Shown here one piece after another: positions 59,741-62,684 of a stretch of 64,000 nt of DNA. This DNA is from Ascidiaceihabitans donghaensis (lineage in GTDB: Bacteria; Pseudomonadota; Alphaproteobacteria; Rhodobacterales; Rhodobacteraceae). The translations under genes and the position numbers were made by a program. Numbering within the stretch: the first letter of the stretch is position 1; each line of letters starts with the position of its first letter. The stretch is from positions 2,480,001 through 2,544,000 of the forward strand of contig NZ_OMOR01000001.1 in the NCBI RefSeq assembly GCF_900302465.1, given 5' to 3'. Under the pieces are notes generated by a model, which was not told the DNA's origin, did not search any database, and saw only the letters and a list, made by a program, of their open reading frames with translations.

Positions 59741-60723
59741 TATTTGCCCTCGACCGTCGGCATGCCCAACGCCTTTGCGTCCACCAACCCGCTTGGCGCG
59801 TCTGTGCGTGTCGCCACCCGTAATTTGGCCGATCTTGCTCGCGGGTTCGCCGCAACCTCATCTGCGTCCGCGGCAATCGCCTTGCGCGATTTGACCGTAA
59901 ATTGCGCAGGCAGTTTTTCTGTTTCGGGCGCAAAACGATTGGCGTTGGCCTGATTGCCGGATCGCGCGGTCAAAAAGCGTTTGACCATGCGGTCCTCGAC
60001 GGAATGGAATGTCACAACAGCCAATTGCCCGCCCGGTTTCAGTGCCCGCTCTGCGGCCATAAGCCCCTGAAACAATTCCCCGTATTCGTCATTCACCGCG
60101 ATGCGCAACGCCTGAAAACTACGCGTGGCGGGATGGGATTGATTGGGTTTGGGGCGCGGCAAACAAGATTCTATGATGCCTGCAAGGCGCAATGTGGTCG
60201 TGATAGGTTCAAGCGTCCGTTCGCGTACAATCGCCTTGGCAATCCGGCGAGACGCGCGCTCTTCACCGTAGTGAAACAGAATGGCCGCGATGTGTTCTTC
60301 GGCGCCTTCATTGACGATATCGGCGGCAGACAGCCCATCTTGCGACATGCGCATGTCCAAAGGCCCGTCGCGCATAAAGGAAAAACCTCGCTCGGCCAGA
60401 TCAAGCTGCATAGAGCTAACGCCAAGATCCAGAACCACCCCGTCCAGGTCCTGCGCATAGTCGTCCATCTTAGAAAACACGCCTTGTGTCAGGGTAATAC
60501 GGTCGCCGTAGTCCCCTACCCAAGGGGCGGCCATTTCAAACGCCAATGGGTCGCGGTCCACACCCACGACATGATCCGCGCCAGCATCCAAAAGATGTTT
60601 GGTATAGCCCCCTGCCCCGAACGTGCCATCCAGCCAGCGCCCCTGCACAGGGTCACAGGCTTTGATAATCGCGTTGATCAGCACCGGAATATGTGGCCCA
60701 GTTTCCTGACCGCGGTCCGACAT
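59740..60723 (-). CDS. rsmH: 16S rRNA (cytosine1402-N4)-methyltransferase RsmH (MraW)
   Basis: A 327-residue methyltransferase: [19 protein letters not shown], the AdoMet site [11 protein letters not shown]-type sequence ([19 protein letters not shown]), [22 protein letters not shown] and [17 protein letters not shown]. Modifies N4 of C1402 in the ribosomal P site region. It overlaps mraZ by one base (TAATG-like junction). Confidence 0.97.
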
Positions 60724-61214
60724 TATTCCATGTCCCCGTCCAGATAGACAGAAGGATCAAGATCCGGATCGAACCCATCGTCATCCAATGCCGCGATGCT
60801 GTCATCGTAGGCTTCGGGGGTCCAGATTTCGAACGTATCGCCAGAAGACACAAAGCGCGCCATGCCATTCAGACCGATTTTGTCGCGCAGCTTGGCAGGC
60901 AAAACGATGCGGCCTGTATCGTCCACAATCACCTCAACGGATTGCGCGGAATACAAACGCTCCATCGCTTTTCGCTTGGCGGACCCACGTGGGAATTTTG
61001 CAATTTTGTCGTCGACCTCGTCCATGGCTTCTATCGTGAAGCCTTCAAGGTAGTCGCGCGTCGCGCCGCCATAGACAAGGATGATGCGCGGCGGCAAACC
61101 GTCGGTCCAGTCCGGGTCACAGGCTTCGATCACACGGCGAAAAGAGGCCGGTATGGATACCCGCCCCTTCGTGTCGACCTTATGGTCGCTTTCGCCTCTG
61201 AACCTGCGTGCCAC
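60723..61214 (-). CDS. mraZ: Transcriptional regulator MraZ
   Basis: MraZ, 163 residues with the tandem AbrB-like half-domains: [22 protein letters not shown] and ...[16 protein letters not shown], with the D-x3-R motif in each. The start is the GTG at 61214, which gives the usual MARRFRG-type beginning. In E. coli MraZ represses its own cluster by binding TGGGN repeats; two such arrays lie upstream here (61499-61543 and 61672-61696). The rest of the cluster follows without gaps. Confidence 0.93.
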
Positions 61215-61277: not shown

Positions 61278-61320
61278 GTAAAAACGGCGGGTTGATCTGC
61301 TGCCACTGATCAACCCGCCG
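61278..61320 (-). terminator. Strong intrinsic terminator in the mraZ leader
   Basis: CGGCGGGTTGATC (61285-61297) and GATCAACCCGCCG (61308-61320) form a perfect 13-bp stem with a 10-base loop; in the direction of mraZ transcription it is followed by GTTTTTAC. It is 64 bases upstream of the mraZ start, in the same direction, so RNA polymerase must pass it to express the cluster. Confidence 0.9.
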
Positions 61321-61490
61321 CCATTGTCCCGCTTGGCGGGAAGTCCAGCTGCGCGCGCCACCTGGGGGGATGTCTGCTCGCTCGCGCGCCGGATCTCTTG
61401 GTCTGATGAAAGCGAGGTGCCTGTATGAAACCTGCTAGAGTTTTGTTTTTGTGTGGGGTCGTTTGGTGCCCCGTGGTCTCGTTCTCATCC
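61279..61490 (-). ncRNA. Candidate attenuated leader RNA of the dcw cluster (UpsM-like)
   Basis: In Rhodobacter sphaeroides the mraZ 5' leader ends at a terminator and yields the abundant small RNA UpsM (about 200 nt). Here the same layout is seen: a ~200-base noncoding stretch ending exactly at the terminator, with a further hairpin TCCCGC/GCGGGA at 61328-61342. The 5' end is my estimate from length; no promoter sequence is certain. No reading frame of note is present. The stretch 61215-61727 otherwise holds only these regulatory features. Confidence 0.55.
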
Positions 61491-61498
61491 GATGCACT

Positions 61499-61543
61499 AG
61501 GGATGCCATGGGAATGCATGGGCTGACAAGGGATTATTTGGGT
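61499..61543 (+). promoter_or_regulatory. MraZ-box array 1 (five GGG units, 10-bp period)
   Basis: Units of the form (A/T)GGGN start at 61499, 61509, 61519, 61529 and 61539, each followed by a five-base spacer: AGGGA, TGGGA, TGGGC, AGGGA, TGGGT. Known MraZ sites in E. coli are three TGGGN repeats with five-base spacers. The units are on the strand opposite mraZ, about 290 bases before its start and next to the likely start of the leader RNA. Confidence 0.75.
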
Positions 61544-61671
61544 AGAATGGTACTACAGGTGGTTATCGAGAGGTCTGAAAAACAAGATATTGTGGTGAAA
61601 TCGGGGAGTTCTGTGGCTCAAATTGGGATTTGTGTCTACACAAACACTACATCTGGTGCCAGCAGAACATA

Positions 61672-61696
61672 CCCCAAAGCTGCCCATGAATTCCCA
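61672..61696 (-). promoter_or_regulatory. MraZ-box array 2 (three TGGGN units)
   Basis: Read on the minus strand, TGGGA (61696-61692), TGGGC (61686-61682) and TGGGG (61676-61672) are spaced by exactly five bases, the canonical three-unit MraZ box and in the same orientation as mraZ. A partial pair (TGGGA, TGGTA) recurs at 61842-61828, sharing the 13-base block CCATGAATTCCCA with array 2. Confidence 0.7.
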
Positions 61697-61727: not shown

Positions 61728-61835
61728 ATGTTCTCTTTACGTTCTCGCGCTGGATACGTCACATATCGCGAAGTGCGCACGCATTCCAAGCAAATTTTGC
61801 ACTTTGATTCGCGCAAATCGCTACAAATACCATGA
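61728..61835 (+). CDS. Possible 35-aa small protein with a perfect RBS
   Basis: TAGGAGG lies 6 bases before the ATG at 61728, a textbook Shine-Dalgarno sequence rare in this window. The frame encodes MFSLRSRAGYVTYREVRTHS then KQILHFDSRKSLQIP and stops at 61835. The peptide is basic and not obviously membrane-bound. It lies between the two MraZ-box sites, diverging from mraZ. It may be a real small gene, a leader peptide, or chance. Confidence 0.35.
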   Translation: MFSLRSRAGYVTYREVRTHSKQILHFDSRKSLQIP

Positions 61836-61940
61836 ATTCCCATAACGGGTTGGCGATTAAATATTCCATTCGAACGACGATTGACCGTCCTTGTACAAGC
61901 ATCCAGGCGTCGCTTATGGTTAGAAAAACTGAAAACGATT

Positions 61941-62684
61941 ATGACAAACATCCTTACATTGCTGCGCGACAGTTGGCGGCTGGTTTCTCAAAACTTCACA
62001 AAAACCGCCTCCCTATGCGCTTTACCCATCCTGCTCATTGTTCTGAGCGGTGCTGTTCTTTTCGGTACGCAGCACCTCTTGCCAAAGGCAACGTTTCTTG
62101 CCATTTCGCCTATCCCCAAAATCATCTCATGGGGCATTTACTTCATCGCTGTCGTGCTTTTGGCCGTGCGTTGGCACCGCTATGCTCTGCTGGGCACTGC
62201 AAGCACGAAAATCAACACGACCTCTGCCTTCGCGCCTTTCAAAAAATATGCCCTCAACTCGGTCATCTTTTTCGTAATTGTGTTATTCTCAGCGCTTGCA
62301 GTTATGGCGATATGGGCGATTGTCTTTACGCTGACTGGAACGACAGAAAGTATCGTCCGCTCACCAGTGCAAATGCTTCTTCCGGTTTTGATGTATTTAG
62401 TCGCAATTTGGATTGGATTGCGCATCTCATTAATCCTACCCGCCGCATCACTTGAAAAAAAGATGTCCATAAAAGACAGCTGGGCCGCGACGGCCACAAT
62501 AAAGTGGGCAGCCTTCGCAGCCTACTTGATAATCTTCATTGCTTTCACACTCATAGGAATACTCCTGAATGAAGCGATAGGGGAAATCGGTAAGAGCTTT
62601 GTAGCCTTTGCTCAAACCCTATTTTCACTAAGCCTAATTAGAGTAATCTACGCTAAGCTCGTGCAAAACGACACAGCGGCTTAA
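61941..62684 (+). CDS. AT-rich polytopic membrane protein (247 aa)
   Basis: The likely start is the ATG at 61941 (MTNILTLLRDSWRLVSQNF); 20 more residues are open upstream. About six hydrophobic segments: ASLCALPILLIVLSGAVLF, IISWGIYFIAVVLLAV, YALNSVIFFVIVLFSALAVM, LLPVLMYLVAIWIGL, WAAFAAYLIIFIAFTLIGIL, and FVAFAQTLFSLSLI. Base composition is clearly AT-richer than the neighbours, suggesting recent acquisition or relaxed selection. It converges with apbC with a 4-base overlap of the two coding ends. No family recognised. Confidence 0.72.
   Translation: MTNILTLLRDSWRLVSQNFTKTASLCALPILLIVLSGAVLFGTQHLLPKATFLAISPIPKIISWGIYFIAVVLLAVRWHRYALLGTASTKINTTSAFAPFKKYALNSVIFFVIVLFSALAVMAIWAIVFTLTGTTESIVRSPVQMLLPVLMYLVAIWIGLRISLILPAASLEKKMSIKDSWAATATIKWAAFAAYLIIFIAFTLIGILLNEAIGEIGKSFVAFAQTLFSLSLIRVIYAKLVQNDTAA

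Follow-up and report, generated by a model that had tools for sequence, protein, structure and literature searches.

A predicted MraZ operator overlying the UpsM/mraZ promoter in Rhodobacteraceae, with helically phased arrays upstream

The dcw cluster in the window (the whole 64-kb stretch of DNA analysed) is preceded by a five-unit array of GGG triplets, array A, which most probably represents an MraZ operator fused with the core promoter of UpsM and mraZ, such that MraZ would repress its own synthesis by promoter occlusion. Two further predicted MraZ boxes, arrays B and C, lie upstream in the opposite orientation and are separated from each other by whole helical turns, and to a repression loop joining arrays A, B and C we would give an even chance. 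The positions of these elements are listed in Table 1.

MraZ is among the most widely conserved cell-division regulators, and little is understood of how its ring exploits a series of repeated sites. From the composite promoter/operator one would expect both dcw and UpsM to be autorepressed, and the phased distal arrays allow the bridging of separate DNA segments by MraZ rings to be tested directly. Of these components, MraZ boxes, MraZ autoregulation and UpsM were known before; for an alphaproteobacterial MraZ operator, a fused promoter/operator or phased distal arrays, no description was found in the open-access literature, a scope outside which several key MraZ papers fall and which leaves absence unproven.

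Table 1. Features of the mraZ leader region, in window positions
Feature	Positions	Strand	Basis
mraZ, first dcw gene	60723–61214	−	Open reading frames, alignment; two MraZ domains (Pfam PF02381, 1e-15)
UpsM sRNA homologue / dcw operon 5′ leader	61278–61493	−	Intrinsic terminator, leader length
Array A, five-unit predicted MraZ operator	61499–61543	+	Repeat counts, conserved register
Predicted UpsM/mraZ core promoter inside array A	61500–61529	−	Family logo; TSS by analogy with R. sphaeroides
Array B, sense predicted MraZ box TGGGAATTCATGGGCAGCTTTGGGG	61672–61696	−	Repeat scan, family conservation
Array C, sense predicted MraZ box TGGGAATTCATGGT	61829–61842	−	Repeat scan, family conservation

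Array A and the promoter predicted within it

Array A reads AGGGA TGCCA TGGGA ATGCA TGGGC TGACA AGGGA TTATT TGGGT on the plus strand, and its GGG triplets start at 61500 (U1), 61510 (U2), 61520 (U3), 61530 (U4) and 61540 (U5), in exact 10-bp steps. It is located 286–328 bp upstream of the mraZ GTG, with the GGG triplets antisense to mraZ, a minus-strand gene. The run of five units noticed in the sequence-only reading is real (61500–61542, plus strand) and constitutes the sole run of four or five GGG at any period of 5–20 bp in the whole window, with no comparable run in 100 dinucleotide-shuffled versions of the same stretch. Within the 4.08-Mb genome, the pattern GGG(N7GGG)x3 matches array A (two overlapping matches) and one isolated position at 2.83 Mb, against three matches for the reversed pattern used as a control, all of these counts being small. 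Single GGG triplets are common, as a chance origin of the periodicity would require; such an origin is nonetheless exceedingly improbable and is refuted by the shuffles together with a register that is conserved in about 190 leaders.

An MraZ box consists of at least two GGG(N)/TGGG units repeated every 10 bp and precedes mraZ where the dcw cluster begins, and array A has this arrangement. Both the unit and the spacing equal those of the E. coli box, and the identity proposed from the sequence is in this way backed by comparison. Its proposed placement upstream of the dcw cluster and along the promoter is likewise upheld, through a conserved promoter-like core situated inside the array. Across the genome the motif is essentially confined to the mraZ leader, so that control by MraZ is probably limited to its own operon here.

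The predicted core promoter is interlocked with the operator units. Specifically, the predicted −10 (CATCCC, 61505–61500, minus strand) coincides with U1, the 18-bp spacer contains U2 and U3, and U4 abuts the predicted −35 (TTGTCA, 61529–61524, minus strand). The core logo of 139 Rhodobacteraceae leaders is TTG[AC]TT-17-[CT]ATCCC, and an element composed of a TTGAC-like motif, 16–18 bp and a TATCCC-like motif is found inside the array at 27 of 30 alphaproteobacterial mraZ loci outside this family. A consensus promoter scan returned no match, because the alphaproteobacterial −10 at this position is TATCCC or CATCCC; the CATCCC of the window is far from consensus.

Among the sRNAs of R. sphaeroides UpsM is the most abundant; it is characterised by a single transcription start site (TSS) about 270 nt upstream and by RNase E processing of the transcript. 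The window contains a long mraZ 5′ UTR with a strong intrinsic terminator, formed by a hairpin at 61322–61283 followed by T5 (−29.1 kcal/mol, z −7.0), and the leader itself folds with a z of −4.95. The leader extends about 216 nt to the end of the terminator and a further 64 nt to the conserved mraZ start, GTG at 61214 on the minus strand, giving a total of about 280 nt. Additionally, the motif TTTCATACAGG is present in 145 of 162 family leaders. In R. sphaeroides (PMC5089854), the mraZ 5′ UTR measures 268 nt, its terminator yields the 206-nt sRNA UpsM, about 62 nt follow before mraZ, and roughly one transcript in 100 reads through into dcw; the window agrees with this leader in its length and in where the terminator and the promoter lie. 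Transferring these distances, with the UpsM start at 268 nt, places the predicted TSS near 61493, just downstream of the promoter-like element. An Rfam scan of the leader returned no family, and UpsM itself is unmatched by any Rfam family.

Downstream of mraZ, the cluster continues with rsmH (mraW), an ftsL-like gene and a penicillin-binding protein gene. On the opposite side, a divergent ORF (61941–62684, plus strand), probably encoding a membrane protein and showing no Pfam match, lies between apbC/mrp and mraZ; several relatives have apbC immediately before the leader.

Conservation of the register, orientation and association with mraZ

The register was counted as sense-strand CCC (equivalent to antisense GGG) per offset in 139 distinct Rhodobacteraceae leaders aligned on the promoter-like core. 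CCC frequencies at offsets −40, −30, −20, −10, 0 and +10 are.10,.48,.09,.42,.91 and.50, respectively, with off-phase values near array A ranging from 0 to about.05. The 10-bp register is seen again in 50 further genera that were unused in building the profile, in which slots −30 and −20, both outside the anchoring profile, reach.36 and.08. Conservation of the 10-bp period in relatives, which had been named beforehand as a check, is thus borne out in both sets. The accompanying view that five units are more than expected did not survive the same comparison: arrays of four to five units occur in several other alphaproteobacteria, and all five slots are filled in 2 of the 139 family leaders, belonging to the window species and one congener only. 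What the family conserves is a layout of five slots, some of them generally vacant: the usual pattern retains U2, U1 or U3, and U5, and U4 is filled in about 9% of relatives.

These counts also bear on a G-quadruplex, which would fold on the non-coding strand from four or five G3 tracts separated by 7-nt loops and would control mraZ. Such control has been proposed for S. aureus, in which a G-rich motif located below the mraZ promoter was shown to form a parallel G4 (PMC11796246). Array A formally fits G3N1-7, yet such a structure is very improbable here, since relatives conserve the register and not the tract number: at least four contiguous tracts are found in 3 of 139 leaders, and leaders with only two tracts still maintain the 10-bp register. 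Moreover, loops of exactly 7 nt are weak, and the units keep a flanking T/A that a quadruplex would not need.

The sequence-only reading had described array A as antisense to mraZ and had set it apart in this respect from a second array, most likely the sense array B. The plus-strand orientation is correct, but it is no oddity, since it proves to be the rule across alphaproteobacterial arrays. Outside Rhodobacteraceae, an antisense pair is present at 28 of 30 mraZ-containing alphaproteobacterial loci, the arrays being antisense in 28 of 28 cases and sense in none. Beta- and gammaproteobacterial loci carry a sense pair near the start codon in 10 of 22 cases and an antisense pair there in none. 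The antisense orientation is, across the loci compared, a class-level inversion in Alphaproteobacteria that places the predicted operator on the promoter.

The presence of the repeat tracks the presence of mraZ. The region upstream of rsmH was inspected at 19 loci in genomes without detectable mraZ, and the TGGGN6TGGG pair is absent from 18 of them, with a single locus (1/19) keeping the array, as against 28/30 where mraZ is present. This co-loss in 18 of 19 genomes speaks against a regulator other than MraZ as the reader of the 10-bp GGG array, as do the agreement of the motif with the MraZ box of E. coli and its restriction to the mraZ leader; a CenR ChIP signal at the R. sphaeroides mraZ promoter that lacks CenR's own motif (PMC9275681) could be taken in favour of such a regulator, which we consider unlikely.

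The one exception, locus L355 (genome G291), belongs to a 0.8-Mb alphaproteobacterium without detectable mraZ and has TTGACG-CCCAGCTATTCCCATGT-TATTTT in front of rsmH. This element retains two operator units, which suggests that the loss of mraZ was recent, and its −10 has drifted towards consensus.

Helical phasing of arrays B and C and the proposed repression loop

The array B pair is present in 100 of 139 family leaders and clusters 182 bp upstream of U2, and array C is present in 96 of 139, at 273–371 bp. Sense TGGGN6TGGG pairs occur in 93 of the 139 leaders versus 4.8 in shuffles, with the control spacings N5 and N7 occurring in 8 and 18 leaders versus 4.2 and 6.6. In the window, C and B are spaced by 146 bp (13.9 turns), on a 10.5-bp grid, and in the family this spacing extends from 104 to 198 bp with values near 125, 135, 146, 156, 167, 176, 187 and 198. 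Across 62 genera, a period of 10.5 bp fits best (95% CI 10.4–10.7, R =.73). When the genera are divided into two non-overlapping sets, each recovers nearly the same period and phase (10.5/9.4 and 10.7/9.0), and in 43 disjoint pairs of close relatives with a changed C–B spacing the differences cluster around multiples of 10.5 (p < 5e-5).

Several simpler origins of this rhythm were rejected. The replication in split genera and the disjoint nearest pairs argue against shared ancestry, and the gain or loss of units, which proceeds in 10.0-bp steps, is excluded by a bootstrap interval of 10.40–10.70; the subset with two units only gives a period of 10.4 (CI 10.15–10.70, n = 14). Periodicity is also not a property of any distance in the region, as the distances in family leaders from array A to the start codon and from array A to the UpsM motif show no 10.5-bp rhythm. 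The distance from the UpsM motif to the start codon gives a weak z of 6.0 at 10.5 and has its maximum at 12.2. Phasing between C and A is present and weaker than that between C and B (paired test p =.008), and spacing alone leaves the face of A relative to the inverted B unfixed.

MraZ forms rings with one DNA-binding surface per subunit. At array A, successive subunits would contact one GGG unit per helical turn along one face of the DNA, and MraZ seated over U1–U5 would cover the −10, the spacer and the −35, so that RNA polymerase would be shut out. This occlusion would repress UpsM and, through terminator read-through, also mraZ and the whole cell-division cluster, thereby establishing autorepression; we infer such binding and repression at array A from sequence comparison. 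Arrays B and C would act as further MraZ boxes, inverted relative to A and lying on the same helix face as each other, and one ring or ring pair would probably bridge B, C and A into a repression loop. The loop is proposed because the B–C spacing comes in whole helical turns: steps of 10.5 bp argue for co-facial MraZ complexes and probably for a DNA loop, and co-facial operators at whole-turn spacing, as found for C and B, are what looping calls for.

A loop-free arrangement is a tentative alternative, in which MraZ would occlude the promoter at A, arrays B and C would be operators of a second promoter further upstream (an SOS-controlled one at the LexA-like box, for instance), and the phasing would come from contacts that RNA polymerase or a different protein makes there. 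It accommodates the fixed position of a LexA-type GAACN7GAAC between C and B, 229–232 bp upstream of U2, as well as the sense orientation of array B, shared with the E. coli box, which follows its promoter. However, a C–B spacing of 104–198 bp in 10.5-bp steps is more easily reconciled with a pair of co-facial sites than with one local promoter complex, a LexA-like box occurs in a minority of leaders whereas the phasing is family-wide, and no second conserved promoter was seen.

Extended beyond the window, the looping arrangement becomes a proposal on which our confidence is evenly divided, namely that Rhodobacteraceae MraZ rings loop A (inverted, on the promoter) with B and C (direct, co-facial) to control UpsM and the cell-division cluster, and that in Alphaproteobacteria generally the operator and promoter would form one composite, with the −10 TATCCC serving as an operator unit, inverted relative to beta- and gammaproteobacteria. 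The overlay of the predicted operator on the UpsM promoter and the helical phasing of B and C go beyond what had been noticed from the sequence.

Other elements are distributed around the arrays. A LexA-type SOS box, GAACGTAAAGAGAAC, occupies 61730–61744 (minus strand) of the window, and GAACN7GAAC at the position given above is found in 19 of 139 leaders, or 27 in either orientation, versus about 1 in shuffles; the box hints that DNA damage feeds into the control of the cell-division leader. Between B and A lie two NrdR-like palindromes, AAACAAGATATTGTGG (61580–61595) and ACACTACATCTGGTGC (61644–61659). The NrdR-like sequence ACACWATATNTWGTGT, at three mismatches or fewer, is found in 81 of 139 leaders versus 0.6 in shuffles, and a similar pair lies upstream of a ribonucleotide reductase large-subunit gene in the same genome. 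DnaA-box-like TTATCCAC/GTGGATAA occur upstream of array A in relatives (for example L019 and L022), in 22 of 139 leaders versus 1.4 in shuffles.

Comparison with known MraZ sites and looping repressors

The leader of the window resembles the UpsM/dcw UTR of R. sphaeroides as set out above and differs from it in the MraZ operator and arrays B and C, which the available excerpt of PMC5089854 does not describe for that UTR. The Mycoplasma MraZ site consists of direct repeats AAAGTG[T/G] (Fisunov 2016, cited in PMC8475190); several direct repeats, there bound by oligomeric MraZ, are shared with the window, whereas the Mycoplasma site has another unit sequence and a single array. In Burkholderia cenocepacia, MraZ binds four 10-bp-spaced repeats at the dcw promoter in gel shift, and repeats of this spacing at the dcw promoter are likewise shared; that site, however, is downstream of the −10 and overlaps the TSS, and upstream arrays are not reported (PMC7761207).

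In E. coli, the MraZ box that precedes mraZ is built of TGGGN units with a 10-bp period (Eraso et al. 2014, cited in PMC8475190). Unit, period and position upstream of mraZ are common to both, and negative dcw autoregulation would be expected in each. The three units that the sequence-only reading had ascribed to E. coli need correcting to four in register in K-12 (TGGG, TGGG, TGGG, GGGG), and Burkholderia also has four. The E. coli units are sense, located at the TSS, downstream of the −10 and within 45 bp of the start codon, whereas those of array A are antisense, lie on the −35/−10 and are 286–328 bp from the mraZ start. Array A departs in this from the E. coli and Burkholderia examples, in which the units are sense and follow the −10, an arrangement that is not known to be required for binding.

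Looping repressors of the AraC, GalR and lambda CI type depend on the helical phase between distant operators, and helical phasing of distant predicted operators is what the window has in common with them. The two differ in that the phasing here is read from natural spacing variation only, and in that the protein would be a closed ring engaging direct-repeat arrays.
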